Source of the DNA: a virus | Virus record (IMG/VR): IMGVR_UViG_3300030103_003268 | Coordinates: 1-64,000 of that record | Length of the DNA stretch: 64,000 nucleotides | Direction: 5' to 3' (one strand) | In this document: positions 6,472 through 61,276 of the stretch, one piece after another | Numbering within the stretch: the stretch's first letter is position 1 | How the letters are laid out: each line of letters begins with the position of its first letter | Made by a program: the position numbers and the translations under genes | The notes under the pieces: generated by a model | Database searches by the model: none | What the model was told of the DNA's origin: nothing | Seen by the model: only the letters and a program-made list of their open reading frames with translations

Positions 6472-6945
6472 ATGGATGATACCACATGGGAAAGCCTCAA
6501 AATTGAGGTGAACGAATACCTAGAAGCCGACACTACGCTTGATGCTGGATTGCGTCAAGTCGTTGAATTGAACCTGCAAATCGGGACGAACAACCCCGAT
6601 GAGCGAACTGCCGCCGAAGGTGCGCTTAAAGCACTTTTGAAGGGAAGAGACGGAACTCCGTTCCGCCGAGGCCAAAAGAGCGCAGTTCCAGCCGCAGTTC
6701 GTGTTTCTATTGACCGAATCTGTGGAGTTGTTGAAGAAGCCGCTATTGGCTACTACAACCACGATGCAGTTATTGGTGCAATTACAATGAAGCACATCAA
6801 ATCTGGTGGCGGAAACTTTGATGGCGCAGAAGATTACGCTTCTGCTGTCGTTAAGCGAACCCGAAACAACCTTGGCAAAATGTTCAAGGCTGGCGATTGG
6901 GACGGTAGCGTTGATTCCCTTTTAGGCGAATCAAGCGACCTTTGA
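6472..6945 (+). CDS. Paralogue family member 3 (157 residues)
   Basis: A divergent member of the family at 2717 and 4210. It keeps the order of blocks: a short N-terminal helix (TTWESLKIEV), a central basic block (PFRRGQKS in place of FPAARRGRES), then a Gly-rich GGGNF and a C-terminal GDWDGS. It has its own promoter (6406-6420), a strong ribosome site (GGAAGGAG) and a run of hairpins behind it, so it is probably transcribed as a single gene at high level. Function unknown. Its position at the head of the rightward module and next to the origin candidate suggests an early role. Confidence 0.85.
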   Translation: MDDTTWESLKIEVNEYLEADTTLDAGLRQVVELNLQIGTNNPDERTAAEGALKALLKGRDGTPFRRGQKSAVPAAVRVSIDRICGVVEEAAIGYYNHDAVIGAITMKHIKSGGGNFDGAEDYASAVVKRTRNNLGKMFKAGDWDGSVDSLLGESSDL

Positions 6946-6970
6946 GATTAAAACCTCAAACAACCGCTTA

Positions 6971-7040
6971 TCAGGTCAATGACCTGAACAACGGGGAATA
7001 GGAGTCTAAGGACTCCTATTCTCCCCTTTTCCACAAGGGG
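6971..7040 (+). terminator. Tandem hairpins after the third paralogue
   Basis: TCAGGTC-AAT-GACCTGA (6971-6987) is followed by AATAGGAGTC-TAAG-GACTCCTATT inside GGGG/CCCC (6993-7026) with TTTT next, and then CCCCTT-TTCCAC-AAGGGG (7023-7040). The middle stem plus T-run looks like a terminator. A further GAAGAGAG/CTCTCTTC pairing extends to 7089. Confidence 0.65.
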
Positions 7041-7107
7041 GAAGAGAGGCGCATGAAAATGCTTTGCTGGCAAGGCTTTCTCTCTTCTCCCGCCTTTGGG
7101 TGGTTTG

Positions 7108-7365
7108 ATGCGTTTAGTTGAAGAAGTCTTTGTCAAAACAAAAGAAGATTTAATTTGCCAGTCTTGCGGTGTTGATATACCAAAAGACAGCAACCATCTT
7201 CTTGAGTCTTATGTTCATCATGGCGTTATTTCAACTAGTCATTACTGTTTAAACCCAAAGTGCAATCCACCTAATAATGTTCGTTTGAAGTTATTTTGGG
7301 GAACACTAGCCACAGGCGTTTCTCTGTGGTTAATCTACTTTTTCTATCAAAACGCTGCGTTTTGA
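7108..7365 (+). CDS. Zinc-ribbon protein with C-terminal membrane helix
   Basis: An 85-residue protein from the ATG at 7108, preceded by GGTGGTTTG. CQSC and CLNPKC form a zinc knuckle pair in the first two thirds. The last 25 residues (FWGTLATGVSLWLIYFFYQ) are a clear transmembrane helix, so the zinc domain would face one side of the host membrane with a tail anchor. It stands alone between a hairpin cluster and tRNA-Leu. Function unknown; a membrane-tethered host-interaction protein is plausible. Confidence 0.7.
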   Translation: MRLVEEVFVKTKEDLICQSCGVDIPKDSNHLLESYVHHGVISTSHYCLNPKCNPPNNVRLKLFWGTLATGVSLWLIYFFYQNAAF

Positions 7366-7509
7366 ATCTATTCATTCAAAGTTTGGGGGGTGGCCCCGCA
7401 ACATATACGCCCTCGGCAGGTGGGGGTATGCTTCAACAGTCGCCAAGCGACATGGTTTCACTTTTTTAATTTGAAATGGTGTGGTTTTCTTCTGTTTAAG
7501 TATTTTAAC

Positions 7510-7593
7510 GCTGAGATGGCTGAGTTTGGTTAAAAGCGCAGGGCTTAAACTCCTGTCCGTATTGGTTCGCAGGTTCAAATCCTGCTCTCAGCA
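7510..7593 (+). tRNA. tRNA-Leu (anticodon TAA)
   Basis: The acceptor stem GCTGAGA (7510-7516) pairs with TCTCAGC (7586-7592), discriminator A. The anticodon stem CAGGG/TCCTG encloses the loop CTTAAAC, giving TAA. A 13-base variable arm (class II) is followed by a T arm GCAGG-TTCAAAT-CCTGC. The CCA end is not encoded. It would read UUA codons, which are common in this AT-rich genome. Confidence 0.93.
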
Positions 7594-7601
7594 CTTTTAC
7601 A

Positions 7602-7665
7602 TGGGGAAGGTTGAACAGGGGGCTAAAGAGTAATGACCGAGTAATCGGTTTTGTTCCCTTCCCCA
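7602..7665 (+). ncRNA. Structured element between tRNA-Leu and the helicase
   Basis: TGGGGAAGG (7602-7610) pairs perfectly with CCTTCCCCA (7657-7665), and an inner hairpin CCGA-GTAA-TCGG lies at 7637-7648. It sits nine bases after the tRNA. It may be a small RNA co-processed with the tRNA, or a terminator/leader structure for the helicase gene. Confidence 0.45.
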
Positions 7666-7695
7666 CCTATTCTCTATTTTTAAGAGGTAATAAAA

Positions 7696-9123
7696 ATGCA
7701 ACACACAAACGAACAAGAAGCAATTTTCAATTGCATAGAAAAAACAGACGACCACCTAATTATCAATGCAGGTGCGGGAACAGGAAAAACAACAACAATT
7801 GTTGAAGCAGCAAATCGTATCAATGGGGAGAAAGCCGCATTCTTGGCATTCAATAAATCTATTGCTACTGAATTAGCAGAAAGACTTCCAACTGGCGTAG
7901 AAGCGAAAACCTTTCACGCCTTTGGTTTCGCTGCGATTCGTGCCGCCGGTGTCAAAACAAAGGTGAACAATTTTAAGGTCAATAACATTATCAAAGAACT
8001 TCATGGTGCTGATTTCTACATCGCCCCACTAAAGAAACTTGTTTCTCTTGTTAAGGGAAGTATGGTTAATGGAACTGACAAGAAAGCCATCAATCAACTG
8101 ATTGATGAATACAATATCAACTTCAATTCAGACCGTGAAGAACGGATTGCAGTAGAATCAATACCTGCAATTCTCACGATGTGCCGAACACAAACCCATG
8201 TCATTGATTTTGATGATATGATTTGGATGCCTATTGTTAATGACTATCCTTTCCCAAAATACGATGTTTTGTTTGTTGATGAAGCACAAGATTTTAACGA
8301 AGTGCAACGAGAAATGATTTCTTTGTGCGTTAATGGCGGTCGCTGTATTATTGTTGGAGATAAAAACCAAGCAATTTACGGCTTCCGTGGTGCTGACTCA
8401 AACTCAATTGATATGTTTCGGCAACGGCTTCTCAAAGGAGAAAGAAAAATCAGCGAATTTCCTCTTTCAATTACTTGGCGCTGTCCTAATTCAGTGGTTC
8501 GTGAGGCTAACCGATATGTGCATGAGTTTAATGCACCTGATTTTGCCGAAGAAGGAGCAGTTATCGTAGATGCTCCATTCACACCACAACGAAATGATAT
8601 GGTTCTTTGCCGATACAATGCTCCTTTGGTGTCTGCTTTCTATGATTTGATTTCACAGGGCAAATCGGCTTATGTTCTTGGTCGTGATATGACGAAGGGT
8701 TTAATTACCGCCGTTCAAAAGATTTCTAAGAACAACCACATGGGCGTTGATGAGTTTTTGCAGTTGTTCCAAAAGGACTTTGCATATAACTATCAACGGC
8801 TTCTTGACCAAAACAAAGAGAATCAAGCGATGGCTCTTGAAGATAAGCGTGATTGTATTATGATTTTTGTTCAAAAAGCAACAACTGTTGGTGGAATCAT
8901 TGAAGAGATTAAGCGTGTCTTTGATGGAAATGATAAAGGTGAAATTATGCTTTCTACTGTTCACAAGGCTAAGGGTCTTGAAGCAGACAATGTTTATATT
9001 CTCGCAACTGAGCGAATGCCCCATCCTTATGGAAGTAAGGAAGAGAACAACATTTGCTATGTAGCGATTACACGGGCTAAAAAGAACTTGTTCTATGTTG
9101 GCCCAAAACCGGGAAAAGTTTGA
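7696..9123 (+). CDS. UvrD/PcrA-type SF1 helicase
   Basis: A 475-residue superfamily 1A DNA helicase. It has Walker A GAGTGKT (residues 26-32), Walker B/motif II VDEAQD near residue 196, motif III VGDKNQAIYGFRGA, motif V STVHKAKGLEADNV, and motif VI YVAITRAKKNLFYV at the C-terminus. It is shorter than bacterial UvrD (about 720), so the 1B/2B subdomains are reduced. Likely roles are 3'-5' unwinding in replication restart, recombination or repair. An AAGAGGTAA ribosome site precedes the ATG. It opens a long rightward run of small genes. Confidence 0.95.
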   Translation: MQHTNEQEAIFNCIEKTDDHLIINAGAGTGKTTTIVEAANRINGEKAAFLAFNKSIATELAERLPTGVEAKTFHAFGFAAIRAAGVKTKVNNFKVNNIIKELHGADFYIAPLKKLVSLVKGSMVNGTDKKAINQLIDEYNINFNSDREERIAVESIPAILTMCRTQTHVIDFDDMIWMPIVNDYPFPKYDVLFVDEAQDFNEVQREMISLCVNGGRCIIVGDKNQAIYGFRGADSNSIDMFRQRLLKGERKISEFPLSITWRCPNSVVREANRYVHEFNAPDFAEEGAVIVDAPFTPQRNDMVLCRYNAPLVSAFYDLISQGKSAYVLGRDMTKGLITAVQKISKNNHMGVDEFLQLFQKDFAYNYQRLLDQNKENQAMALEDKRDCIMIFVQKATTVGGIIEEIKRVFDGNDKGEIMLSTVHKAKGLEADNVYILATERMPHPYGSKEENNICYVAITRAKKNLFYVGPKPGKV

Positions 9124-15148: not shown

Positions 15149-15355
15149 ATGATTAAGTTGAGAATTATGAACGAAACTGGACACACAGAAGTTGTCCTTG
15201 CAGAAAGCGAAGTTATTGACCAAATTGACCAACACCCGACCCATTGGGTGTTTATTGACGGTGAAATGGTTGCTAGAGAATCTATCGGGGAAATTAATTG
15301 GGACACTGTTCAATCAGTGGATTTGACCCCCGCTATTGTTGGAGGAAGTTATTGA
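15149..15355 (+). CDS. Ubiquitin/ThiS-like beta-grasp protein candidate
   Basis: A 68-residue protein. It starts with a beta hairpin (MIKLRIMNETGHTEVVL), then a short helix (SEVIDQIDQ), then WVFIDGEMVARESI, and ends with a strand and LTPAIVGGSY. The DGE-V-R segment and the terminal strand leading into Gly-Gly closely resemble ThiS/MoaD sulfur carriers and ubiquitin-like modifiers. Two residues (Ser-Tyr) follow the Gly-Gly, as in precursors that a JAMM protease trims. The window also encodes an E1-like enzyme (20980) and a JAMM protease (22627). It has its own promoter and a strong terminator, so it is probably made in quantity. The assignment is by pattern, not by database match. Confidence 0.65.
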   Translation: MIKLRIMNETGHTEVVLAESEVIDQIDQHPTHWVFIDGEMVARESIGEINWDTVQSVDLTPAIVGGSY

Positions 15356-15390
15356 GATTAATTTCTCTTAACTCTTCCAAACCACCATTC

Positions 15391-15435
15391 GGGGGTAGCG
15401 TAGGATTTAATCCATCCTGCGCTATCCCCTTTTTT
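15391..15435 (+). terminator. Terminator after the ubiquitin-like gene
   Basis: A long stem (GGGGTAGCG with CGCTATCCCC, plus an inner AGGAT/ATCCT) followed by six T. It isolates the 15149 gene as a single-gene transcript. Confidence 0.8.
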
Positions 15436-15440
15436 GGGTG

Positions 15441-15821
15441 ATGCAACCCGATTTGATAAATTTTATCAACCAAAATGGATTAAAAATAATGCTAGACCTG
15501 AAAGGATGGACTTATTCCTCCTGTATTCAGATAAATGGTTTAGCAGTAGTCAAACCCGACTTTTACCCGCCCCGTCATGTCCTCGCTATGGGCAAGAGGG
15601 GCTACATTTATTGCGACGGGCAGACTCGGATAGATTACGCAGGGAAAGTGTTTTCATCAACAGATGAATTACTCAATACCTGCGGTGAAGAAGCAATTCT
15701 TCATTTTAAGGATTGGGTATTCCTTGAAGAAAAAGAATGGGTGATAACCGATGGTAGTCATTGGTTAGCCTCATTCTCAAATCTCTCAGAATTACCTAAA
15801 AGAAGCAAATATAGGTGTTAA
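15441..15821 (+). CDS. 126-residue hypothetical protein
   Basis: Starts MQPDLINFINQNGLK with GGGTG just upstream, only five bases after the terminator T-run. Mixed alpha/beta with several Cys and Trp, including YIYCDGQTRIDY and FLEEKEWVITDG. It precedes ribonucleotide reductase by two bases, so it may be co-expressed with it. No family is recognised. Confidence 0.6.
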   Translation: MQPDLINFINQNGLKIMLDLKGWTYSSCIQINGLAVVKPDFYPPRHVLAMGKRGYIYCDGQTRIDYAGKVFSSTDELLNTCGEEAILHFKDWVFLEEKEWVITDGSHWLASFSNLSELPKRSKYRC

Positions 15822-15823
15822 TT

Positions 15824-17689
15824 ATGACTCAAGCCCCAAACAAAAAGATTTTATCAGATATTACTGTTCACATGAAATATGCAAAATACAACCCCGAATT
15901 ACTCCGAAGAGAATCGTGGGATGAAATTGTTGAAAGAAATATGCAAATGCACATCAAAACCTATCCTCAGTTAGAAGAAGATATTCGTGATGTTTATACT
16001 CACTTTGTCAAAACGAAGAAGGTGTTGCCTTCTATGCGTTCAATGCAATTTGGTGGTAAGCCGATTGAGATTAGCCCTAATCGGGTCTATAATTGTGCTT
16101 ATATGCCTATTGATACTCACATCGCTTTTAGCGAGGCTATGTTCCTATTATTAGGAGGAACAGGCGTAGGATATTCGGTTCAACGACATCATGTTGAATT
16201 AATGACTCCTATTCAGCATCCTAACCCAAATCGCCAACGACGATATTTAGTTAATGATTCAATAGAAGGTTGGGCTGATGCAGTAAAAATTCTAATGGAA
16301 TGTTATACTGGTGTTAGAACATCTACACCTACATTTGATTATTCCGACATTAGACCAAAAGGCTCTCTTTTAAAAACTTCTGGAGGTAAAGCCCCAGGCC
16401 CACAACCATTGAGAGAATGTCTTGTTAAGATTGAAGGTATGCTTCAAACTATTTCTAATGGTTCTATGTTAAAGCCAATTCAAGCACATGATATTATGTG
16501 CCATATTGCTGATGCTGTTCTTAGTGGAGGTATTCGTCGTGCGGCTATGATTTCTTTGTTTTCAGCAGACGACCATGAAATGATTGCTTGTAAATCTGGT
16601 AATTGGTGGGAAAACAATCCCCAAAGAGGAAGGGCAAACAATTCAGCCGTTCTTTTGAGACATAGAGTGACGAAAGATTTCTTTATGGATTTGTGGAACA
16701 GAATTAAAGCATCCGGTTCAGGAGAGCCTGGAATTTATTTTAATAACGACAAAGACTGGGGAACAAATCCATGTTGTGAAATTGCGCTACGGCCATATCA
16801 ATTCTGCAACTTAACCGAAGTAAATGCTTCAGATATTACAGACCAAGCCGATTTAGAATCAAGAGTTTCAGCCGCCGCATTCCTTGGAACGCTTCAAGCA
16901 GGATATACTGATTTTCATTATCTTCGTGAGGTATGGCGCAAAGCAACAGAAAAGGATGCTTTGCTCGGTGTTTCAATGACAGGAATTGCATCCAACATTG
17001 TTGAACATCTTGATTTAGAAATGGCGGCCTATGAAGTCAAGAAAGAGAATGAACGAGTTGCTAAAGAAATTGGTATCAATCCAGCATCAAGAACAACTTG
17101 TGTGAAACCAGCAGGAACCACTTCTCTTGTTTTAGGAACATCAAGCGGCATTCATGCTTATCACGATGAGTATTATATTCGTCGTCTTCGTGTTGGTAAG
17201 AATGAAGCAATTTATGGCTATCTCGCAAACAACCACCCCGAACTCGTTGAGGATGAGTTTTTCAATCCGCACGAACAGGCAGTTATTTCAGTCCCTCAAA
17301 AAGCACCAAAAGATGCAATTATCCGACATGAATCAGTGTTTGATTTGTTGGAGCGAGTCAAAAACTTTAGTATTCGTTGGGTTCGTGCAGGACATAATGA
17401 TGGGTTGAATACCCACAATGTTTCTGCAACAGTCTCTATAAAAGAAGAAGAATGGGAAACAGTGGCCGATTGGATGTGGTTAAACCGACATTACTATAAT
17501 GGCCTTTCTGTTCTCCCATATGACGGAGGAACATATACTCAAGCACCCTTTGAAACTTGTGATAAAGAAACCTATGATAAACTGACTGAAACTCTTCAAG
17601 ATATTGATTTAACATTGGTTCAAGAATTACAGGATGATACTGACCTTTCAGGCGAATTAGCCTGTGCCGGTGGCGCTTGCGAAATTTAA
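15824..17689 (+). CDS. nrdJ: Adenosylcobalamin-dependent (class II) ribonucleotide reductase
   Basis: A 621-residue reductase of the monomeric ribonucleoside-triphosphate type. It shows GGTGVGYSVQ, NPCCEIALRPYQFCNL (thiyl-radical Cys and, ten residues on, a redox Cys), KPAGTTSLVLGTSSGIH with YIRRLRV, and a C-terminal redox pair in CAGGACEI. NCAYMPID near the N-terminus carries the partner Cys. It makes dNTPs for viral DNA synthesis and depends on vitamin B12 rather than on oxygen or an iron subunit. It is shorter than the Lactobacillus enzyme (about 740). The ATG at 15824 follows GGTG. It is followed by small genes. Confidence 0.93.
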   Translation: MTQAPNKKILSDITVHMKYAKYNPELLRRESWDEIVERNMQMHIKTYPQLEEDIRDVYTHFVKTKKVLPSMRSMQFGGKPIEISPNRVYNCAYMPIDTHIAFSEAMFLLLGGTGVGYSVQRHHVELMTPIQHPNPNRQRRYLVNDSIEGWADAVKILMECYTGVRTSTPTFDYSDIRPKGSLLKTSGGKAPGPQPLRECLVKIEGMLQTISNGSMLKPIQAHDIMCHIADAVLSGGIRRAAMISLFSADDHEMIACKSGNWWENNPQRGRANNSAVLLRHRVTKDFFMDLWNRIKASGSGEPGIYFNNDKDWGTNPCCEIALRPYQFCNLTEVNASDITDQADLESRVSAAAFLGTLQAGYTDFHYLREVWRKATEKDALLGVSMTGIASNIVEHLDLEMAAYEVKKENERVAKEIGINPASRTTCVKPAGTTSLVLGTSSGIHAYHDEYYIRRLRVGKNEAIYGYLANNHPELVEDEFFNPHEQAVISVPQKAPKDAIIRHESVFDLLERVKNFSIRWVRAGHNDGLNTHNVSATVSIKEEEWETVADWMWLNRHYYNGLSVLPYDGGTYTQAPFETCDKETYDKLTETLQDIDLTLVQELQDDTDLSGELACAGGACEI

Positions 17690-17698
17690 GGTGATTAA

Positions 17699-18073
17699 AT
17701 GAAACTCTCCAAAATTTCTAATTTTGAAGAGTATTTAGATGTAATAGTAATAATGTCTAGAGATTTATCTAATATGTCTCTGGAAAGAATAGGTATGGCA
17801 ATCAATGTGTGTGATTCTTACATGGATGACAGCGAAAAAATATATAGGCTAAATACCACTCTCAAAAAATGCCTGTGGGAATATGAAGAAGCAATTAACA
17901 TGGGCTTTCATAAGTTCATAATCAAAGAGACAGGTAAAATTAAAGAACTGCTTAACTATCACAAATTTAATTGCGAAGGCGAATCATGTTATATTTGTAA
18001 TGTTTTAAAAGAAACTAAATTGAAAATGGTGAATAATAATGAAAGAAAAGAATCCTCAATATGTTCTCAATAA
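17699..18073 (+). CDS. 124-residue helical protein with C-terminal CxxC
   Basis: Mostly alpha-helical (MKLSKISNFEEYLDVI at the start), with C-x4-C-x2-C (CEGESCYIC) near residue 102. The ribosome site is AAGGTGATTAA. It overlaps the next gene by 35 bases in another frame. Function unknown. Confidence 0.65.
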   Translation: MKLSKISNFEEYLDVIVIMSRDLSNMSLERIGMAINVCDSYMDDSEKIYRLNTTLKKCLWEYEEAINMGFHKFIIKETGKIKELLNYHKFNCEGESCYICNVLKETKLKMVNNNERKESSICSQ

Positions 18074-18200
18074 GAGAAGCAATAAACCAATAGCCACACG
18101 ATGTCGTGTGTGTGGCGGGCAACTTATGGTAGCCCATGAAATTAAAAACGAAATCCATGATAAATGTAATAATGACGATAAAAATGTATATATGATGTGA
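18039..18200 (+). CDS. 53-residue zinc-finger microprotein
   Basis: CRVCGG at residues 22-27 followed by H-x-K-C (HDKC) gives a CxxC-HxxC zinc site. The basic N-terminus suggests nucleic-acid binding. GGTGAATAATA precedes the ATG. It overlaps the end of the previous gene, which is normal for this genome. Function unknown. Confidence 0.55.
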   Translation: MKEKNPQYVLNKRSNKPIATRCRVCGGQLMVAHEIKNEIHDKCNNDDKNVYMM

Positions 18201-18204
18201 TATA

Positions 18205-19356
18205 ATGAAACTAAGAATTAAAAAACCAGATGATAGCCAACAGTATTTTGAAACAAATATTACCTGTGCTTCTTTCCAATTTAGAGAAATCATAACGGTT
18301 AATTTTATCCGGTCTTCTAAAGACCCAATCCAAGCAGGACTGGAAGCCTTTTGGAAGAACTTGATTTCTCCTAGAAAATCAAGAAGACATCTCTCTACTG
18401 GCTTCGGATATAAATTTAATCATATTATTTTTATTGAAGGCTGTCCTGTTGTTCTATCAAGAGAAGGCATTCGTTATCAATTAAATGGTAAATCATACAG
18501 CCTTTCAACTATTTGTTCAGCATTAGCAAGAATCACTTTCAAATCATGTTTTGAAAAGAAGCCAGAAAATTTACTTTCTGCGTTGTATTCAACTCTTAAT
18601 TTGCCAGAAAATGTCAAGTATTGTCTTGAGAATCGTGCGCCCTTTCATTTCTTTGAGGACTTTGAGAAACAAGAGGTTCGCTTGAATGTAGTTCAAATTG
18701 ATGATAAGATGCTTGCTATGGAGATAAGTGATGGTATTTGGGGAGAGATAACTCCAAAACAATTAGACTCTTACTGTAATTTTTATCTCCATAATAGGAG
18801 AAAGGGGTCTTGGAAATATCTTTCACCTAAATCACTATATACTAGGCTAATGGGCCGTGAGCCATCGCAGTCTGAATTAAAAGTCATGATTGCTTTTTTG
18901 ATGCAAAACAGAATGCAGGATATTGTAGACGCAAGGGCATTGGAATTAGTGGCTGATATGCTAGTTCAGCATAAAGGTAGACTATCTGCTGAATATGGTA
19001 ATGACGGAGTGTTAGAGACTCTCTTTGTTAGAGGCAAAGATTATGATTGGAAACTTACAAATAATAGATATAAGTCTGGCATTCAAATGGTTTCAACTTT
19101 TGTCTGGCAACCAATTGTTGAAATGGTTAAATCAGAGGAAGATGATTCTTCTTCTAAGATATTCACTGAACCAGATTGGAGAGGGCCAATTTGTATTGAC
19201 AATATGGCCGAAGGCTCTCCATTAGGCGACCAATTTGCTGCAAGAGCATTAGCCCTTCTAAACGACTCCTTTACAATAACAATAGTAAATACAATTAAGC
19301 GGTATCTTGCTGCTGAACCGAATAAATATAGGATTGATAGCAATGATTTGCGATGA
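18205..19356 (+). CDS. 383-residue protein of unknown function upstream of TFB
   Basis: A large protein without a recognised domain. The N-terminal half is mixed alpha/beta with CASFQF and KSRRHLSTGFGYKFNH. Residues about 205-260 (RLMGREPSQSELKVMIAFLM, then ARALELVADML) are helical. The C-terminus again is helical. No Walker motif, zinc cluster or membrane helix is seen. Its end overlaps the TFB start by 14 bases, so the two are co-translated and may work together, for example in transcription, but that is an inference from position only. Confidence 0.75.
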   Translation: MKLRIKKPDDSQQYFETNITCASFQFREIITVNFIRSSKDPIQAGLEAFWKNLISPRKSRRHLSTGFGYKFNHIIFIEGCPVVLSREGIRYQLNGKSYSLSTICSALARITFKSCFEKKPENLLSALYSTLNLPENVKYCLENRAPFHFFEDFEKQEVRLNVVQIDDKMLAMEISDGIWGEITPKQLDSYCNFYLHNRRKGSWKYLSPKSLYTRLMGREPSQSELKVMIAFLMQNRMQDIVDARALELVADMLVQHKGRLSAEYGNDGVLETLFVRGKDYDWKLTNNRYKSGIQMVSTFVWQPIVEMVKSEEDDSSSKIFTEPDWRGPICIDNMAEGSPLGDQFAARALALLNDSFTITIVNTIKRYLAAEPNKYRIDSNDLR

Positions 19357-20200
19357 ATGTGGAAGCAACAATAACTCATTTGATGAGATACAAGGCGAAA
19401 GAGTTTGTAATAACTGTGGGCTTATTCTAGTCCAAGAGATGTTTGAAGAAACTGTTCATATTTTAGATACGGGCGGTAATCTAAAACATTCTGCTGATAA
19501 AGGTAGATTGGGTTCTGTTATTACTGGTAAAGGTTCTTACAAATTTAATAAGTTTGGTAAGAATAGTGTGATTCCTCAACACATACAAAATGCTTTGATG
19601 CATTGTAATATGATTTTGTCTCATGTTGCCCCTAACTTGGGTTTGAATGAGCGTGTTGAAAAATTATATCTTGACTTACATAACAAAGGTATTTTTGGAA
19701 GAAGTCAAATTGAAGCGAGAGCAACCGCAGTTGTTTTTTATGCTTTAAGAGAAAACGGAACACCACATACTTTTGCAGAAGTCTCGTCTGAGTTTAATGC
19801 TAACTTAAAAACAGTTAAGAGACTAGTTAGAAAAATCAATCAAGTTTTTAGAAACAAAGCCGCTTATAGTCCTATTAATCCACAGTATCTTTTAGAGAAG
19901 ACACTTAATGAGATTACAAGTGATTTAGTATTTAAAAGACAGACAATCAAAATATTAGAGTTTTTTGAAACAAAGGCCGCACAGAACACCTTCAATAAAG
20001 GAAGGTCATATTATGCGTCAATTGTTTGGATTTCAGCAAACATGAATGTAAATACGCTGATAACTCAGAATCTAATTACCGAGAAAACAGGATTTTCTCG
20101 CTTCAATATTAGAAGACAGACTAAAGCAATCTTATCTATGGTGGGTTTAAAACTAGCCAGCCAAGTGAAAGGAAAACAACTAAGTGAATTAGGTGAATGA
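19343..20200 (+). CDS. tfb: TFIIB-like transcription initiation factor (TFB)
   Basis: A 285-residue archaeal TFB. The N-terminal zinc ribbon uses CDECG (residues 3-7) and CNNCG (22-26). A linker and two cyclin-like repeats follow (about 85-170 and 180-280), with IEARATAVVFYALREN in the first and YYASIVWISANM in the second. TFB recruits RNA polymerase to TATA-TBP complexes and reads the BRE. The start at ATG 19343 places the ribbon at the N-terminus, as in all TFBs. A virus-encoded TFB could redirect host polymerase to viral promoters such as the GGACTCC-TTTATATA set. Confidence 0.92.
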   Translation: MICDECGSNNNSFDEIQGERVCNNCGLILVQEMFEETVHILDTGGNLKHSADKGRLGSVITGKGSYKFNKFGKNSVIPQHIQNALMHCNMILSHVAPNLGLNERVEKLYLDLHNKGIFGRSQIEARATAVVFYALRENGTPHTFAEVSSEFNANLKTVKRLVRKINQVFRNKAAYSPINPQYLLEKTLNEITSDLVFKRQTIKILEFFETKAAQNTFNKGRSYYASIVWISANMNVNTLITQNLITEKTGFSRFNIRRQTKAILSMVGLKLASQVKGKQLSELGE

Positions 20201-20201
20201 T

Positions 20202-20525
20202 ATGTTTGAAAAAGAATGGAATAAAATAGCAAAGAAAGTATATAAGAACGCAGTTAATCATGGGTTTTGGAAAGAAACCCCGAATGATGGTGAACGCATG
20301 GCTTTGATTCATGCAGAAATTAGTGAAGCACTTGAGGCTTTACGGGATGGAAACCCATCATCTTCAAAGATTATTGAATTTAGTAGTCTTGAAGAAGAAT
20401 TAGCCGATGCAGTAATTCGTATTATGGATTATGCCTTTGGCAAAGATTTAGATATTGCAGGAGCAATTCTAGCAAAAATGGAATATAATGAAAGCCGTGA
20501 GTTTATGCATGGTAAAACATTTTAA
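20202..20525 (+). CDS. MazG-like nucleotide pyrophosphohydrolase
   Basis: A 107-residue all-helical protein with the MazG metal-binding pattern: HAEISEALEALRDGN (the E-x-x-E pair) and EEELADAVIRIMDYA (E-x-x-D). The family hydrolyses nucleoside triphosphates and, in phages, may adjust nucleotide pools or alarmones. GGTGAATGAT precedes the ATG at 20202. It lies between TFB and a small acidic gene. Confidence 0.85.
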   Translation: MFEKEWNKIAKKVYKNAVNHGFWKETPNDGERMALIHAEISEALEALRDGNPSSSKIIEFSSLEEELADAVIRIMDYAFGKDLDIAGAILAKMEYNESREFMHGKTF

Positions 20526-20537
20526 GGAGGAATAAAT

Positions 20538-20804
20538 ATGGATGAATTTGAGAAGAAGAAAGAAAGATTGATTAGGCAACATAATCTTTATATTGAGGAT
20601 TGTGAATCAGACATTACATTTGAAAATTTTCTGGTTCTAAACATTTTGTCTCAAGCAGATGAAATTAATTCGCTTATGCAGGAATTATTAAAATTTAATC
20701 CCCCGTATTTAGAAGAGATTGATGAGATAGCCGAAGAGTTTTTTGACACTCTTAAAAAGCAAGATAAAGAAGCAGAAGAAAAATTTAAGGAGGAATATCA
20801 ATGA
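20538..20804 (+). CDS. 88-residue acidic helical protein
   Basis: It starts within the GGAGGAATAAATATG cassette. Very rich in Glu/Lys/Asp, with predicted helices throughout (EKKKERLIRQHNLYIEDCES). Its end overlaps the next gene by 4 bases. Function unknown. Confidence 0.65.
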   Translation: MDEFEKKKERLIRQHNLYIEDCESDITFENFLVLNILSQADEINSLMQELLKFNPPYLEEIDEIAEEFFDTLKKQDKEAEEKFKEEYQ

Positions 20805-20983
20805 GAAAAGATAAATTAATAACAGGTTTTACTTGTGTTTGTATTGATGGAATTGGATTTGGCCACCAACCAACGGTGGTTAAATGGCATCCAACAGATA
20901 CAACCGCAGAATGTCTTGAATGCCAGCGAGTTTGGGATTTAGAAGTAATTAAATATACAATAGAAAATGGAGGATGGGAATGA
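20801..20983 (+). CDS. 60-residue zinc-ribbon protein ahead of the E1 gene
   Basis: CVC near residue 12 and CLECQ near residue 38, with two His between, indicate a zinc site. It ends IENGGWE, and its last codons contain the GGAGG ribosome site of the E1-like gene. It is translationally coupled on both sides. It may be an accessory to the E1 or an unrelated adaptor. Confidence 0.65.
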   Translation: MRKDKLITGFTCVCIDGIGFGHQPTVVKWHPTDTTAECLECQRVWDLEVIKYTIENGGWE

Positions 20984-21540
20984 TGAGAAAAATATTAGTA
21001 ATTGGAGCAGGTGGAATTGGAAGTTTTCTGATTCCTACATTAGATAAAGTGGGCCTTTACCGCATTCATGTGGCTGACCCTGATTCGGTAGAAACAAAGA
21101 ACCTACCTTATCAAAACTTTAAGAAAGGCCATGTTGGGCAAAATAAGGCTCAGGTAATGATGGATTCCTACGAATCTGTCTCTACTTTTAGCAAATACCC
21201 AGTTTTGACTGAAAAACAAATGCAGGGCTATGACCTTGTGATTTGTTGTGTTGATAACTTGGGTGTGAGGCGAACCTTATACAACACAACCCTTAAATGG
21301 CTTGACTTACGAGCGCAAGGTAGAAATGCCGCACTTGTGAGTCATAAGGCCGACCCGAAGATGTATGATATGCTCTTAGCCGGAGAAGAAGGTTCATTCA
21401 GTTGCCAAGGGGATTCGTGGGATGGAACAAATAGTAATGTTCATTTTATGCAGGTCGCAATTGCAGGATTAGGCTCACAATGGATTCAAAGATATTTTAA
21501 TAAGGAAGAAGTGAGAGATTATATGGTGGTGAATGTATGA
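20980..21540 (+). CDS. ThiF/E1-like adenylating enzyme (short form)
   Basis: A 186-residue Rossmann-type E1 domain. It shows the nucleotide loop GAGGIGS, DPDSVETKNLPYQNF with GHVGQNKAQV (the D...N...K activation motif), and CCVDNLGVRR (the conserved D/C-VDN block). A single Cys in GSFSCQGD near residue 140 is a candidate thioester residue. E1 proteins adenylate the C-terminal Gly of ubiquitin-like or sulfur-carrier proteins. At under 190 residues it lacks the extended C-terminal half and CxxC zinc pairs of MoeB/ThiF, and resembles the short plasmid/phage E1 forms such as PRTRC-type ThiF. It is coupled to the genes on both sides. Confidence 0.85.
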   Translation: MMRKILVIGAGGIGSFLIPTLDKVGLYRIHVADPDSVETKNLPYQNFKKGHVGQNKAQVMMDSYESVSTFSKYPVLTEKQMQGYDLVICCVDNLGVRRTLYNTTLKWLDLRAQGRNAALVSHKADPKMYDMLLAGEEGSFSCQGDSWDGTNSNVHFMQVAIAGLGSQWIQRYFNKEEVRDYMVVNV

Positions 21541-22625
21541 GTGAAAGAAATTTTTGGACGGATGAGCAGGTGGCGTTTCTTGTTGTTTGTAGAACAAAAA
21601 GACAAACATGGGAACAGATTGCACTTTCTATGGAAAGTAAATTTGGCTTTTCAAGAAGTCCTTCTAATATTGCTAATAAATATCGTAGTCTATTTGATGG
21701 CGACCATGCCAAAGAATATACGCCCGAACAGTCAAAATTCATTATTGATTGCTATTTGAATCACTTCCAAACAAAAGTGATTCTTGAGGGTTATTTTGAA
21801 CAGTTTGGTCAGACCATTAATCCATCGGATATTGATAAAGTCGTAAAAAAGCATCTAGCGACTGAAAAGAAAGTAGATGCTGAAATTAAAACAATAAAAA
21901 CAAAAATTAAGGAGAGAAAAAAGATGAAAACTAACAGAACGGCCGCTAAGTGGTCAAAAGAAGAAGATGAGATGATTATGGCGTGTAAAAGCCGAAAGGA
22001 AGCACTGTCGCTCCAAATTGGGCGAACACAGGGAGCACTTCGTAATCGTTGGCAAAATTTGAAAGTAAAAGCAAAGGCAGTAAAACCTGTTGAGAAAGTT
22101 TCTCAGCCAAAAAAGGGCGCAAAGCGTGGACGAATGACAAATGTTGAATTAGAAATGATTCGCAATTGTAAAACGGTTGAAGAAGCATTGGCTTTGAATT
22201 TGCGAAAGCCTGAAACAATTATTCGGCAATTCGCTACTTTCAATTCAAAGAAGAAAGAAGTGGTTCTTGCAGTTAGACCTAAGCAAAATACTCATGGAAA
22301 CAAGGGTAGGAAATATACTCCCCGTTGGACAAAAGAACAGGACTATGACCTCATCTTGAACTTTTACGAACTTTCAATTGACGAAGCCCGAAACCGATTT
22401 AATCGGCCATACGGAGTTATCGCAAGCCGCTTAGAAAAGTTGGTTGATAGCACAAAGCCTGAGCATATCTCTATGCTTATGGAGGCTTCAAAGGAAATCA
22501 AGAGTCGCAAGAAGGCACAGAACCCAACGCCCAAAAAGAGCCGCAGAACACTACGCAAAGAGCGAAAGAAGGCTAAGAAAGAGGCTAAGTTGAAGGCCAA
22601 GTTGCAGAAAATCCGAGGTGAATGA
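21537..22625 (+). CDS. Protein with four Myb/SANT-like repeats
   Basis: A 362-residue basic protein with four Trp-led helical repeats: NFWTDEQVAFLVVC near residue 5, KWSKEEDEMIMACKS near 140, RGRMTNVELEMIRNC near 200 and PRWTKEQDYDLILNF near 260. Each is followed by a helix-turn-helix-like segment, for example RTQGALRNRWQNLK. The C-terminal 50 residues are almost all Lys/Arg. This is the layout of a Myb/SANT or related tri-helical DNA-binding protein. It sits between the E1-like and JAMM genes, with ATGA-type coupling to the first. It may be a transcription factor or chromosome-binding protein. Confidence 0.8.
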   Translation: MSERNFWTDEQVAFLVVCRTKRQTWEQIALSMESKFGFSRSPSNIANKYRSLFDGDHAKEYTPEQSKFIIDCYLNHFQTKVILEGYFEQFGQTINPSDIDKVVKKHLATEKKVDAEIKTIKTKIKERKKMKTNRTAAKWSKEEDEMIMACKSRKEALSLQIGRTQGALRNRWQNLKVKAKAVKPVEKVSQPKKGAKRGRMTNVELEMIRNCKTVEEALALNLRKPETIIRQFATFNSKKKEVVLAVRPKQNTHGNKGRKYTPRWTKEQDYDLILNFYELSIDEARNRFNRPYGVIASRLEKLVDSTKPEHISMLMEASKEIKSRKKAQNPTPKKSRRTLRKERKKAKKEAKLKAKLQKIRGE

Positions 22626-22626
22626 A

Positions 22627-23202
22627 ATGAGTAAAAGTAGCGATTGGGCGTTAAAAGAACAGGAGAAGAATGAAATGAAAGATGAAAGTGAAATTGAACA
22701 AGCAGAATTGGAGTATTTTAGAGAGAAAGCCATCTCTGATATTAAGGAATCCTTTGAAGAGATTCTTGAGATTAACCTTAACTCTTGTAAAGGCCCAAAG
22801 GAAGAACTATTAGATGTTGCTATGCACAACAAAAATTTTCATGAAGTTATTTGGAAGGCTTCAACGGAAACATTACCTCATCTTGAAGTGCAGGTTGTAA
22901 TTGATGGAAAAAACAATTGTTTCGTTTCAACAGGAACGGCTGGCTTTGTTGATTTCTTTGAGCCTCCAATTGGTATGACTCTTCCTATTCGTTGCTGGAT
23001 TCATACTCATCCATTTGGAGCCGCCTATTTTAGTGGAACCGATATTCGGACAGTTTCTATCTGGGAACAGAATATGGAATGTGCATATGTTCTTGGTGGA
23101 ATTGACCATCATGGTTTTTGGAGTAAGCGAGAACCTAAACAATTGGAAATCTATGAAGATAATGAGGAATACAAAATACAAACATGGGGTGAAGAAGAAT
23201 GA
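22627..23202 (+). CDS. JAMM/MPN metalloprotease (deubiquitinase-like)
   Basis: A 191-residue protein with an N-terminal helical region (1-60) and a JAB/MPN domain. HTHPFGAAYFSGTD is a perfect H-x-H-P-x6-S-x-x-D zinc motif, which marks active JAMM isopeptidases. A catalytic Glu should lie upstream, near the VQVVIDG strand region or the preceding helix. These enzymes cut after the Gly-Gly of ubiquitin-like proteins or remove them from targets. ATG 22627 follows AGGTGAATGAA. Together with the E1-like gene two positions upstream and the Gly-Gly protein at 15149, it suggests a modifier pathway. Confidence 0.87.
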   Translation: MSKSSDWALKEQEKNEMKDESEIEQAELEYFREKAISDIKESFEEILEINLNSCKGPKEELLDVAMHNKNFHEVIWKASTETLPHLEVQVVIDGKNNCFVSTGTAGFVDFFEPPIGMTLPIRCWIHTHPFGAAYFSGTDIRTVSIWEQNMECAYVLGGIDHHGFWSKREPKQLEIYEDNEEYKIQTWGEEE

Positions 23203-23513: not shown

Positions 23514-23917
23514 AGAAGAAATTATGGCAAGAAATGACTTACGAAGAACAGCAAGAGATTTTGGAAGATTTGAAAGGGAGTTGGCCTTCATTCAGATATG
23601 ACCATCCTCGCTCAAGGAATCTGAATACTTGGCGCAACCCTAATTTGGAAGATTTTGTGGCTTATATGAATGCGCCTCTCCATTCTTCTTGGATTCAGTA
23701 CCAAAATGAATATAATCGTTTGCGTCGTGAAGAACGACAAAAAGATATGGTTGGGTTCCTAGAGCATTATTCTAAAACGCAGCCCTTAGCGGCTAAAATG
23801 ATTGAAGATATTTATGCTTCTCCCCGAGACTATAAAACTGTCAAACAGATGACTAAAATGGTTTTAGATTTTTTCCCGCCAAGAAACTGGCCTATTACAA
23901 GAGGTGAAGAAGAATGA
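23510..23917 (+). CDS. 135-residue hypothetical protein
   Basis: Starts MKKKLWQEMTYEEQQEILEDL at ATG 23510, which follows GAGGAAGAAGA. A helical, aromatic-rich protein (residues 35-80 contain several Trp, Tyr and Pro), ending RGEEE. The next start overlaps by 4 bases. Function unknown. Confidence 0.65.
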   Translation: MKKKLWQEMTYEEQQEILEDLKGSWPSFRYDHPRSRNLNTWRNPNLEDFVAYMNAPLHSSWIQYQNEYNRLRREERQKDMVGFLEHYSKTQPLAAKMIEDIYASPRDYKTVKQMTKMVLDFFPPRNWPITRGEEE

Positions 23918-24132
23918 AGGCTTTAGGTAATTATGCAATAATCAAACTAGAAAACTCGGTTTCTAAATCAGGTATTCAGGTTAAGATTGATAGCACAGGT
24001 GTTGTGCATTCATGTCCTTCAATGCCCGAAGTAGAGGGTAAAACGGTTTTATTTGACGATAGACACCGTTTCGTTACTCACGACGATATGATTATTGTTT
24101 CCGTAGAACATCTATTGGGGGTTTTTGATTAA
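23914..24132 (+). CDS. groES: GroES-like co-chaperonin
   Basis: A 72-residue minimal Cpn10. KALGNYAIIKLE matches the L-x-D-R-V-V-V-K strand of GroES, SKSGIQVK the mobile-loop region, VEGKTVLFDD the barrel, and DDMIIVSVEHLLGVFD the C-terminal strand (compare the GroES ending E-x-D-I-L-A-I-V). It is shorter than cellular GroES (about 97), mainly in the loop, as in some phage forms. It lies one small gene upstream of the GroEL-like gene, which strengthens the call. Confidence 0.8.
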   Translation: MKALGNYAIIKLENSVSKSGIQVKIDSTGVVHSCPSMPEVEGKTVLFDDRHRFVTHDDMIIVSVEHLLGVFD

Positions 24133-24332
24133 TGTTTTTTAGGCAACAAAAATATAGGAATAAGATTGAGAAGTTTCATAGTTGGGCAACGTGGCATTTA
24201 AATGCCGATAAAGACTTTGTTGAATATGTATTGTATCTGTCCAACATTACTCCAGAAGAAAAAGATTGTAGATTTATTTGGAAAACGATTGAATTGCTAC
24301 TTAGAGTGGAGGAGATTAATTATGATTATTAA
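24132..24332 (+). CDS. 66-residue protein between groES and groEL
   Basis: Its ATG shares a base with the groES stop, and its end overlaps the groEL start by 11 bases, so all three are coupled. Basic N-terminus (MFFRQQKYRNKIEKF), helical C-terminus ending INYDY, aromatic-rich. It may be a chaperonin accessory or simply a spacer gene. No family is recognised. Confidence 0.6.
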   Translation: MFFRQQKYRNKIEKFHSWATWHLNADKDFVEYVLYLSNITPEEKDCRFIWKTIELLLRVEEINYDY

Positions 24333-25845
24333 AGGAAGAGAAGTAAAAGAAAAACTACTACAAGGAATCAATTTGGTTGCTGATACAGTTAAACCAACAT
24401 TAGGGCCACAGGCAAAAACAGTAATTTTACAGGGTAATCCACCAGTCGTCATCAATGACGGCGTAACAATTACAAGGTATGTTTCTCACGAAGACCCTTA
24501 TGTTCAAATGGGAGTTCAATTAGTTCAAAATTTAGCAAGTAAAGCCCAAGAAGGTTCAGGTGATGGAACAACTACTGCTTGTATTCTTGCACAGGCTTTT
24601 TGTAATGAATTGATTAACAATGAAGAAAAACTGACTACGCATGAATTTCACCTTTTGATGGAAACCCTTCGTGAAGAAACAATTAACTACTTAGATAGTA
24701 TTTCAATTGCAGTTGATGATGGCGATATTATGAATGTAGCCACAATTGCAGCAAACAATGATGCTTCTCTTGGAAAATTAATTCAAGAAGCATTTAATAC
24801 AGTTGGCCGAGATGGGGTAATTACCGTTGAAGAATCTAATAACTATCAGACACAATTAATTGTCCGTGAGGGAATGGAAATTCAAGAAGGCTATTTGAGC
24901 CATCTTATGTGTAATACTGAAAGCGGGAAAGTTGAGTTTAATAATCCTGTTGTTTTCATGTCAAACATGAGCCTTCGGCACTTCAAAGACATTATGCCTT
25001 TGCTTGAGTATTCGGCCAGTCAAAGCCGACCTCTTCTAATTATGTGCAAGGGTATGGATGGTTCAGCACTTAACAATTTGATTATGAATCTAATCAACAA
25101 GACTGTTGAATGTGCAGTGGTCATGGCTCCTAATTTTGGTGATGCTCAGATTGATGAATTGTCGGATATTCAATCCTTGATTGGTGGAAAGGTCTTTGTT
25201 GAAGAAAGTAAAGACGATTCAAAACTCTTTACTGAAACTGATTTGGGAACCTGTTCTAAGGTTATCATTACAAAAGAAACGACCACCTTTATTGGCGGAG
25301 AAGGCAATACCGAAGAAAGAATCAAAGCCTTAAAAGAACAGGCACTTGATTTGAAAGGACATGACTTGGCTCGTATCAAATCAAGAGTCTCCCGTCTAAA
25401 GGGTGGAATTGCTACGATTAAGGTTGGTGCATCATCTTCCATTGAAATGAGAGAAAAGAAAGAAAGACTTGATGATGCTCTCCATGCAACAAAAGCAGCC
25501 TTAGAAGAAGGTATTGTTATTGGTGGCGGTGTTCCGTTTATTCGTCTTGCTCATGCTATTGAAGCACCCGAATGGTTTAGAAAATCAGTCGTAAAACCAT
25601 ATCGTGTTCTTTTGGATAATGCTAATTATACTGAACAAACGAGGGTTGTTGAATTTGAAATGGAAAAAACAATTGATGGAACAAATCCTAATTGGGGATT
25701 CAATGCAGTTTCATGTATGCACGAAGATTTAGCAGAAGCAGGTGTCTTTGACCCTGTGAAGGTTTCTAAGAACAGTTTCTTAGCGGCATTATCAATCGCC
25801 CAGTTGTTTTACTCAACAGATGTTGCAGTATTAGTGGAGGAATAA
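24322..25845 (+). CDS. groEL: GroEL-like group I chaperonin
   Basis: A 507-residue Cpn60. TVKPTLGPQAKTVIL and NDGVTITR match the equatorial N-terminus, GDGTTTACILA (80-90) is the ATP-binding signature, and EEGIVIGGGVPFIRLA matches the intermediate/equatorial return. The GGM-rich GroEL tail is missing. The sequence is group I (bacterial type), not a thermosome. It would form a ring that, with the GroES-like protein, folds viral proteins. ATG 24322 follows GGAGGAGATTAATT. It ends LVEE before a GGAGGAATAAATATG cassette. Confidence 0.92.
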   Translation: MIIKGREVKEKLLQGINLVADTVKPTLGPQAKTVILQGNPPVVINDGVTITRYVSHEDPYVQMGVQLVQNLASKAQEGSGDGTTTACILAQAFCNELINNEEKLTTHEFHLLMETLREETINYLDSISIAVDDGDIMNVATIAANNDASLGKLIQEAFNTVGRDGVITVEESNNYQTQLIVREGMEIQEGYLSHLMCNTESGKVEFNNPVVFMSNMSLRHFKDIMPLLEYSASQSRPLLIMCKGMDGSALNNLIMNLINKTVECAVVMAPNFGDAQIDELSDIQSLIGGKVFVEESKDDSKLFTETDLGTCSKVIITKETTTFIGGEGNTEERIKALKEQALDLKGHDLARIKSRVSRLKGGIATIKVGASSSIEMREKKERLDDALHATKAALEEGIVIGGGVPFIRLAHAIEAPEWFRKSVVKPYRVLLDNANYTEQTRVVEFEMEKTIDGTNPNWGFNAVSCMHEDLAEAGVFDPVKVSKNSFLAALSIAQLFYSTDVAVLVEE

Positions 25846-38097: not shown

Positions 38098-38288
38098 AGG
38101 ATGAAGAATTTTACTTTGAAACATTGAAAGAAATAAAGAAAATGAAAGAGCACCTAGAAGAAGAATTAGAGGACTTAGAAATCAAACTGCGTTCTCTTAA
38201 ATTAGTTAAAAGACAGATTATGGAACTTCAAGATGAAGTTGCTAAAATGCAAAAACAACCTGTTGGTATGCTTTTTACTTTGAGATGA
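38094..38288 (+). CDS. 64-residue coiled-coil protein in the polymerase insertion
   Basis: Nearly the whole protein is a Glu/Lys/Leu heptad coil (LKEIKKMKEHLEEELEDL). ATGA coupling to the previous gene. It ends four bases before the polymerase C-terminal part. It could help dimerise the split polymerase, but that is a guess. Confidence 0.6.
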   Translation: MKDEEFYFETLKEIKKMKEHLEEELEDLEIKLRSLKLVKRQIMELQDEVAKMQKQPVGMLFTLR

Positions 38289-38292
38289 TAAT

Positions 38293-39186
38293 ATGAAAGT
38301 AGTTTATGGACATACAGATTCTATCTATGTGCAGATAGATTCGGTGGAACAAGCACAAAAATCAATTAAAAAGATTGAGGCAAAAGTGCGTGAGAGTTTT
38401 CCTAATGTAATGGGATTAGACAATCATCCTGTTGTTCTTGAGTTTGAGAAGTATTATTCGGCATTGGGTGTAGGAACAACCAAAAACAGAAATGCAGGTT
38501 TAGTATCTTGGGAAGATGGAGAATGGTTAGAAAAGCCAAAGTTTAGCATGACTGGCTTTACGGCAAAGCGAGTTAGTGAAACAAAATTAGCAAAGAGAGT
38601 TCAAACTAATACTCTTAAAATGTGGGTTGAAGGTAAAACACAAGCAGAAATTGTGCAATACTTACACAGAGAATATACAACCGTTCTTGATGGGCAGATT
38701 AGCATAATGCCTCTTATTAAAAGAAGTCGTCTAAGGAAAAATCGTTTCACAGTAAAATGCCCTGAATGTAAAACACAGTATCATTTGCGTGATTGTGTTC
38801 ATTTAAAGCATGAAGTTTGTGAAAAGTGCGCTACTCCAACAAAACAATTTACTACTCTTGAGGGAAAGAAGCCGACAATTGGTTCAGGTATTGCTGGCGT
38901 TTTATATGCTTGGGAAAAGAAAGATGCTAATTTTGATGACTCTTATATTTACTTAAAAGTAAAGGGTGTAAATGATTTTTATACGCATCCTTTAACGCAT
39001 GAAAGGCGAGAAGTTGAATACATATCAGGCACAACCGCTAAGGATTTAGGCAGTTGTAGAGCAGACTTAGCCTTCTATTCGCAACAGGTTATCAAGAAGG
39101 CGGAACCCATTTTCAAGGCTATGGGATGGGACACATCGGCCATACGCACAGGAAAAATACAGTCAAGCCTTGACGAATGGTGGTGA
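38293..39186 (+). CDS. polB: Family B DNA polymerase, C-terminal part (motif C and thumb)
   Basis: 297 residues starting right at motif C: MKVVYGHTDSIYV. The first Asp of the usual D-T-D is His; the second Asp, which binds the catalytic metal, is kept. MTGFTAKRVSETKLAKRVQ corresponds to the KxY-like/thumb entrance. A CPEC...CEKC zinc site lies at residues 156-179, inside the thumb, which is unusual. The rest completes the thumb. GATGATAAT is a weak start site, so expression may depend on coupling. It must pair with the 35468 product to be active. Confidence 0.9.
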   Translation: MKVVYGHTDSIYVQIDSVEQAQKSIKKIEAKVRESFPNVMGLDNHPVVLEFEKYYSALGVGTTKNRNAGLVSWEDGEWLEKPKFSMTGFTAKRVSETKLAKRVQTNTLKMWVEGKTQAEIVQYLHREYTTVLDGQISIMPLIKRSRLRKNRFTVKCPECKTQYHLRDCVHLKHEVCEKCATPTKQFTTLEGKKPTIGSGIAGVLYAWEKKDANFDDSYIYLKVKGVNDFYTHPLTHERREVEYISGTTAKDLGSCRADLAFYSQQVIKKAEPIFKAMGWDTSAIRTGKIQSSLDEWW

Positions 39187-59761: not shown

Positions 59762-59965
59762 TTAATACCCCTCATGATAATAATCTCCATATGCTCTTGC
59801 ATCTGCCGAATCATTTAATAAGTCTAATTTACAATCTTCACAAAGATTTTCAGGTTCGTAGCCCATTTCTCTAGCCATTTTATTACCCATTTCATCATAT
59901 TGGCTATATGTAGCAGGTTGTTTCTTACAGCGAACACACATATTTTTAATTATATTTTTCCACAT
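59762..59965 (-). CDS. Zinc-ribbon protein with MWKNIIK leader
   Basis: 67 residues from ATG 59965. The N-terminus MWKNIIKNM matches the leader seen in the left-edge genes. CVRCKK and CEDCKL form a zinc ribbon. It sits among head-tail genes, so it may be packaged with the virion. Function unknown. Confidence 0.6.
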   Translation of the reverse strand: MWKNIIKNMCVRCKKQPATYSQYDEMGNKMAREMGYEPENLCEDCKLDLLNDSADARAYGDYYHEGY

Positions 59966-61275: not shown

Positions 61276-61276
61276 T

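Follow-up and report, generated by a model that had tools for sequence, protein, structure and literature searches.

What would a virus do with a ubiquitin-like protein ending in Gly-Gly, encoded near the kinds of enzyme that activate such proteins and take them off again? The question is raised by the IMG/VR virus record IMGVR_UViG_3300030103_003268, of which 64 kb out of 94,476 bases were analysed (hereafter, the window). The window encodes a ubiquitin-like protein (Ubl), an E1-like enzyme of the ThiF superfamily and a JAMM metalloprotease. The answer favoured here, to which we give a probability of about 0.7, is that magrovirus-like viruses encode a dedicated Ubl modifier system that acts on proteins and is homologous to one in their presumed hosts, the Poseidoniales. 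It rests on the genes, their predicted folds, conserved catalytic and C-terminal residues and co-occurrence, together with homologues, gene fusions and tandem Ubls in the host archaea.

The Ubl had been noticed in an initial annotation as a 68-residue protein at 15149 ending in PAIVGGSY, and this open reading frame (ORF) is confirmed, with Gly65-Gly66 followed by Ser-Tyr. Its AlphaFold2 model (mean predicted local distance difference test, pLDDT, 87; predicted template modelling score, pTM, 0.70) has the order strand-strand-helix-strand-strand-helix-strand (bb-a-bb-a-b), with the last three residues disordered. When the model was compared with the PDB by Foldseek, nearly all top matches were ubiquitin-fold proteins, i.e. 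ubiquitin, MoaD, ThiS, ISG15 and SUMO (best E 8e-3, probability up to 0.99). The predicted structure is hence the beta-grasp fold expected of a ubiquitin-like modifier, as had been anticipated. All 67 distinct viral relatives end in AIVGG plus zero to two variable residues, leaving the Gly-Gly, which is invariant, exposed or exposable. At the DNA level, the differences among 81 distinct Ubl sequences fall on codon positions 1, 2 and 3 in proportions of 27, 17 and 56%, and both glycine codons are fixed at positions 1 and 2 while position 3 takes all four bases. The protein and its di-glycine end are therefore under selection, and this codon test rules out a Gly-Gly end that arose by chance.

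The second component belongs, by sequence, to the E1/ThiF superfamily (PF00899), scoring 61.8 bits against a cut-off of 28.1, and its profile matches UBA5, Cap2, MccB, Uba4, the NEDD8 E1 and MoeB in the PDB. The initial identification of a short ThiF/E1 protein with a GAGGIGS motif thus stands; its start, given as 20980, does not, and is moved to 20983 (rather than 20974 or 20980) because most relatives align from residue 4, at an ATG that overlaps the upstream stop codon. The motifs comprise GAGGIGS, DxD, K55, D91-N and C141, and GxGGIGS, D32, D34, K55, D91 and C141 are invariant across the viruses, Poseidoniales, Methanoperedens and crAss-like phages.

The third protein contains HTHPFGAAYFSGTD, i.e. 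the HxHPx6SxxD motif, plus a glutamate upstream. Its five catalytic residues (E87, H126, H128, S136 and D139) do not vary among 61 relatives, which bears out the original call of a JAMM protease with an intact active site. Profile searches matched AMSH-LP (E 3e-4) and Sst2 (E 2e-3), and the structural model (pLDDT 90) retrieved Caldiarchaeum Rpn11, AMSH, Sst2, CSN5 and PfJAMM1 in Foldseek with modest E-values (best 2e-3). Against membership of the Prok-JAB family, the protein scores 19.6 bits on that Pfam model, below the cut-off of 25. It is accordingly classed as a JAMM protease by its active site and predicted fold, not by Pfam Prok-JAB.

That the three genes belong together is seen from their distribution, which the initial annotation had proposed to check in related viruses. 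Across 159 related viral loci, 129 carry Ubl, E1 and JAMM, and in each of the remainder the contig or the locus breaks off close to where the missing gene would be. Virus records were also selected independently, using a late-module protein (59971-61287) as marker: 12 of the 43 records so obtained contain E1 and JAMM, 11 of these also the Ubl (the twelfth starts just before E1), and 31 contain none of the three. All eight marker-selected records longer than 90 kb carry the complete set. Many of the 31 are short fragments; however, G010 (66 kb), G029 (58 kb) and G031 (78 kb) have none of the genes either, and some relatives may therefore lack the set. In the related viruses Ubl, E1 and JAMM are thus obligately linked wherever a contig spans the region. 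As a separate observation, the 184,733-base contig IMGVR_UViG_3300021958_000021 (L013, L064) contains the entire module twice, in differing copies about 90 kb from each other, and probably represents two virus genomes joined in assembly.

The linkage extends beyond what had been noted initially, in that the invariant viral block has three further members and the set also exists in the presumed host archaea. Among 80 dereplicated viral loci, Ubl, a protein of no known family (protein X), a TFIIB-like transcription factor (TFB), E1 and JAMM are present in every one, and a small zinc-ribbon-like protein in 79. These genes and their neighbours are listed in the table.

Features of the Ubl-E1-JAMM region, with positions in the window
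Feature	Coordinates	Strand	Basis
Ubl, 68-aa ubiquitin-like (beta-grasp) protein	15149..15355	+	AlphaFold2 model, Foldseek, invariant Gly-Gly, codon test
Class II (B12-dependent) ribonucleotide reductase, neighbour outside the invariant block	15815..17689	+	NCBIfam RTPR E 4e-74, below cut-off; 43/80 loci
Zinc-ribbon-like protein, 53 aa, CRVCGG motif	18039..18200	+	79/80 dereplicated viral loci
Protein X, 383 aa, no known family	18205..19356	+	80/80 viral loci; invariant Cys330
TFB/TFIIB-like transcription factor	19343..20200	+	Pfam TFIIB zinc ribbon E 1.3e-5, below cut-off; 80/80 loci
E1-like/ThiF adenylating enzyme, 185 aa	20983..21540	+	Pfam ThiF E 7e-17; PDB profile matches; conserved columns
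Myb-like DNA-binding protein between E1 and JAMM, accessory	21537..22625	+	Pfam Myb E 8e-7; 48/80 loci
JAMM/MPN+ metalloprotease, 191 aa, long N-terminal helix	22627..23202	+	Invariant catalytic residues; profile matches; model

Which virus is this? Magroviruses are tailed viruses tied to Poseidoniales (Marine Group II, MGII), archaea that abound in surface seawater, and the Magrovirales are described as genomes of about 90-110 kb with two divergent modules, a split PolB, RFC, a sliding clamp, TFB and GroEL/ES (PMC10768690). A Pfam scan of the window's proteins recovered TFB and a Cpn60 chaperonin; an RFC-like clamp loader, a two-part family B DNA polymerase and an ATP-dependent DNA ligase are encoded as well, and a sliding clamp candidate is weakly assigned. 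In size, modular layout and gene content, as compared with the published description, the record appears to be a magrovirus-like genome, and the Poseidoniales are its presumed hosts.

Scanning genomes with the E1 profile yielded matches in Poseidoniales, including the MGII chromosome CM001443.1. In many Poseidoniales, E1 and JAMM are fused in a single ORF of about 400-420 amino acids, directly preceded by a Ubl ORF whose C-terminus is GLVGG or GLTGG with one or two further residues; the fused JAMM has x5 in place of x6 in the HxHPx6SxxD motif. In Poseidoniaceae, separate but adjacent ORFs encode E1 and JAMM, and the Ubl is a tandem of two to three units (four in one genome), every unit closing with (V/I)GG before a short linker; by its sequence, this tandem is built like a polyubiquitin precursor. 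In three genomes, of which two are closely related, a single ORF joins two Ubl units to E1, and JAMM is the next gene downstream. Across 146 Poseidoniales genomes, Ubl and JAMM occur together in 62, neither in 71, Ubl alone in six and JAMM alone in seven (Fisher p 7e-26, related genomes not being independent). A Ubl search of 293 genomes of the phylum gave matches only in genomes already among the Poseidoniales set.

Viral and host sets are homologous. In the E1 tree, the viral clade (support 99/97) adjoins the Poseidoniales clade, the grouping of the two being weak (80/18), with Methanoperedens outside and crAss-like and other bacterial E1s far off. As the viral clade lies outside that of the Poseidoniales, recent acquisition of the viral genes, and of the viral E1 in particular, from any sampled host is not supported. 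In one host group a TFIIB-like gene follows the E1-JAMM gene, and the viral block also has a TFB; such generic TFIIB similarity is no proof of common origin. Two further features of the host loci may be recorded. Most have, after E1-JAMM, a conserved helical protein of about 80 amino acids (L221 9154-9390, L223 9163-9408 and equivalents), for which there was no Pfam match and no viral counterpart was recognised. One genome of the Poseidoniales set (locus L325, G162 contig 56) has a Ubl together with a JAMM that is much nearer the viral type (E 2e-40), in the differing order Ubl, JAMM, E1; this is possibly an intermediate or a virus-derived stretch.

How would such a system work? From the families concerned we infer that E1 adenylates the C-terminal glycine of the Ubl, forming Ubl-AMP at Gly66. 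The Ubl could then reach lysines on target proteins directly, in the way of archaeal sampylation, or alternatively by way of a carrier cysteine, be it Cys141 of E1 or possibly Cys330 of protein X. JAMM would trim the zero to two residues after Gly-Gly and take the tag off conjugates; in the host, the homologous protease would cleave the tandem Ubl precursors as well. There is precedent for such cleavage in CsRpn11, a JAMM protein that cuts the CsUb precursor exactly after Gly-Gly (PMC6043591). With a TFB in the block, a guess is that targets include host or viral transcription or replication proteins, possibly for proteasomal turnover; in Haloferax, sampylation and JAMM2 govern the degradation of the TATA-binding protein TBP2 (PMC4895103). 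The purpose, again a guess, might be to redirect host transcription or protein turnover, or to block the host's own system. The initial annotation had the three proteins work together, perhaps in modifying targets: the first part of this is strengthened by their co-occurrence and by the E1-JAMM and Ubl-E1 fusions of the host, and the covalent modification of targets stays a proposal.

Several observations weigh against a protein modifier system. As had been remarked at the outset, there is no obvious E2 or E3: none was recognised, and Pfam gave no E2 match among the genes scanned, which included 43 members of protein X. The viral E1 is minimal at 185 amino acids, and the position of the Arg finger in NLxRQ, a motif known from MoeB, is occupied by Tyr in the viruses and by His in most hosts, so that its activity could be altered. 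The Foldseek E-values of the Ubl are modest because the protein is tiny. On the host side, many Poseidoniales genomes lack the set, and the E1-JAMM loci of Poseidoniaceae have no neighbouring Ubl, which is encoded elsewhere in the genome.

If a carrier is sought within the block, protein X comes into view. Its C-terminal part has the invariant Cys330 within GPICIDN, followed by GDQ and LLND, and searches of Pfam and the PDB gave no match to an E2, a SWIM or any other domain. Genes next to E1-JAMM in the hosts share a V-G-[sG]-W ... C-I ... GD ... LLND ... TL pattern, and hhalign gave a probability of 89% for an MGII gene adjoining JAMM and of 25-36% for another host family. These alignments are suggestive of a relationship between the C-terminal region of protein X and the host neighbours. 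In one locus (L324), the Ubl is fused to a domain that resembles protein X, a resemblance read by eye from the motif, and is followed by E1 and JAMM. Protein X showed no similarity to the genes adjoining E1 in crAss-phage or Methanoperedens. It may act as an E2-like carrier, be a degenerate zinc finger or itself be a target. A bolder proposal makes it a noncanonical E2/E3-like Ubl carrier in a six-gene block (Ubl, zinc ribbon, X, TFB, E1 and JAMM) that would reprogramme host transcription or protein turnover in competition with the host system, and this we hold to be doubtful.

The main chemical rival to a protein modifier is sulfur transfer, in which the Ubl would take up a thiocarboxylate and donate its sulfur in the manner of ThiS, MoaD or Urm1, for instance to a cofactor or tRNA, while JAMM would free the carrier. 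Such transfer uses the chemistry that E1 and Ubl already share with it, MoaD and ThiS are among the Foldseek matches of the Ubl, the virus has two tRNA genes, and JAB proteins are found in sulfur-carrier operons (PMC1779556). However, the viral E1 is without a rhodanese domain, and no rhodanese, cysteine desulfurase or thiolase was recognised among the block genes scanned (host genes could supply such partners), nor is any of them an invariant partner of the set. Tandem Gly-Gly Ubls and E1-JAMM fusions also suit a protein modifier better, and we regard sulfur transfer as unlikely.

Could the host set instead be a defence, like Bil or type II CBASS, with the viral trio acting as decoys or antagonists that intercept or strip the host's tag? 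Homologous sets in virus and presumed host, the patchy host distribution (62 of 146 genomes with both genes, 71 with neither) and the presence of Cap2 among the PDB matches of the E1 profile speak for such an arrangement. Yet the viral E1s form their own clade outside that of the hosts, the active-site residues of the viral JAMM are all intact and those of E1 mostly so, and the host genes sit amid neighbours that are conserved within host groups rather than in varied islands. Such a counter-system is, in our judgement, quite improbable as a separate explanation; countering the host could also be the purpose of the modifier system favoured above.

Two further possibilities are very unlikely. 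Phage Ubl-JAB pairs are known in tail assembly, and a virion role like that of the lambda TAPI (Ubl)-TAPK (JAB) pair, with the ThiF-like protein as an accessory, has in its favour that phage tail proteins occur in the viral Foldseek list; however, lambda-type pairs have no E1 (PMC1779556), and the present set belongs to the block on the replication strand, together with TFB and GroES/GroEL, the late module being on the opposite strand. MccB-like chemistry, in which adenylation by the ThiF protein at the C-terminus of a small protein leads to a modified peptide, is suggested by MccB as a top PDB match of the mixed E1 profile, but the block shows no recognised export or immunity genes, JAMM is an obligate partner, and the likely substrate is a folded beta-grasp protein with a Gly-Gly end. 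Linkage to the neighbouring ribonucleotide reductase as the function of the set is ruled out, this gene being present in only 43 of the 80 loci.

The proposed viral modifier system resembles several known ones. The SAMP system of Haloferax volcanii (SAMP1-3, UbaA and HvJAMM1/JAMM2) is alike in its Gly-Gly Ubl, single E1, JAMM, archaeal setting and absence of a recognised E2; unlike it, the present genes are virus-borne and obligately linked and, in the hosts, fused or in tandem. Membership of SAMP/UbaA is rejected, as the E1 scores 30.4 bits on the curated UbaA model against a cut-off of 450. The operon of Caldiarchaeum subterraneum (CsUb, E1, E2, RING and CsRpn11) likewise has a Ubl precursor that runs on past Gly-Gly and a JAMM to take off the extra residues (PMC6043591), but has an E2 and a RING E3 and is non-viral. 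Bacteria are known to have operons of E1, JAB and Ubl, as well as E1-JAB fusions and tandem Ubls, with E2-like domains (PMC1779556). The E1-JAB-polyUbl operons among them (Iyer et al. 2006, rows 6a-6e; PMC1779556) are alike in an E1 fused to or adjoining JAB and in tandem Ubls, yet have an E2-like or inactive-E2 domain, none of which was recognised among the genes scanned here; moreover, the present Ubl and JAMM fall below the Pfam and NCBIfam models, only ThiF reaching one.

PRTRC plasmid loci likewise encode E1 (ThiF), JAB and Ubl together, and had been offered initially as a parallel, which proves a loose one. PRTRC_ThiF is the best NCBIfam match of the host E1, at 52.9 bits, and the viral E1 scores 43 bits, against a cut-off of 144.75; for the other PRTRC proteins, the NCBIfam scan gave no match to Ubl, JAMM or protein X. 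With E1 alone resembling a curated model, and that far under the cut-off, PRTRC membership is rejected. Bil and type II CBASS (Cap2/Cap3) also have an E1 and a JAB (and Bil a Ubl), and the E1 profile matches Cap2, whereas the present set is virus-carried and shows no recognised E2 and no cGAS-like enzyme.

Among viruses, the crAss-like Bacteroides phage DAC15 (about 100 kb) has a JAB directly before an E1 (genes 88 and 89; 29% identity), but its E1 has an N-terminal extension and sits far off in the tree, and no Gly-Gly Ubl of the present family was found. Searches of GenBank phages gave no relative of Ubl or JAMM, and E1 matches that were mostly crAss-like. The crAss-like JAB-E1 pairs (L160, DAC15, 6551-8660; L161 6598-8654) are annotated as hypothetical or thiamine proteins in several records. 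Methanoperedens-related loci (L228 7968-9170 and L226 7995-9056) have an E1 of the same broad type, 192-195 amino acids long, followed by a protein of 156-166 amino acids that ends in KGKGG, and no JAMM was seen near these E1s.

If the proposed reading is right, this would be the first Ubl-E1-JAMM set in an archaeal virus, as far as the literature searched shows; no paper joining magroviruses or Poseidoniales with ubiquitin was found in that literature, of which Philosof 2017 and Prabhu 2025 were not part. The polyubiquitin-like gene of the hosts and their Ubl-E1 and E1-JAMM fusions bear on the origin of ubiquitin-type signalling and its precursors in archaea, and a tagging system shared by virus and host is a testable case.

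Some observations concern the surrounding genome. Directly downstream of the module, at 23914-25845, lie a 72-residue GroES-like ORF, recognised by eye and without a Pfam match, and the Cpn60 chaperonin; GroEL is present in 74 of the 80 dereplicated loci, and the set may have a role together with it. The DNA polymerase B at 35468-39186 is split into two ORFs, which flank an HNH-like ORF (37153-37818). Finally, a number of late-module proteins share an N-terminal tag, with zero occurrences in the reversed sequence: at least 12 otherwise unlike late-strand proteins, encoded on the minus strand at 955-1251 and 59762-59965 of the window and in the rest of the genome (L319, L320), begin with M-x(0-3)-W-x-x-[IL]-[ILMV]-K, as in MSWKNILK, MTWKNILK and MNDWKEILK.

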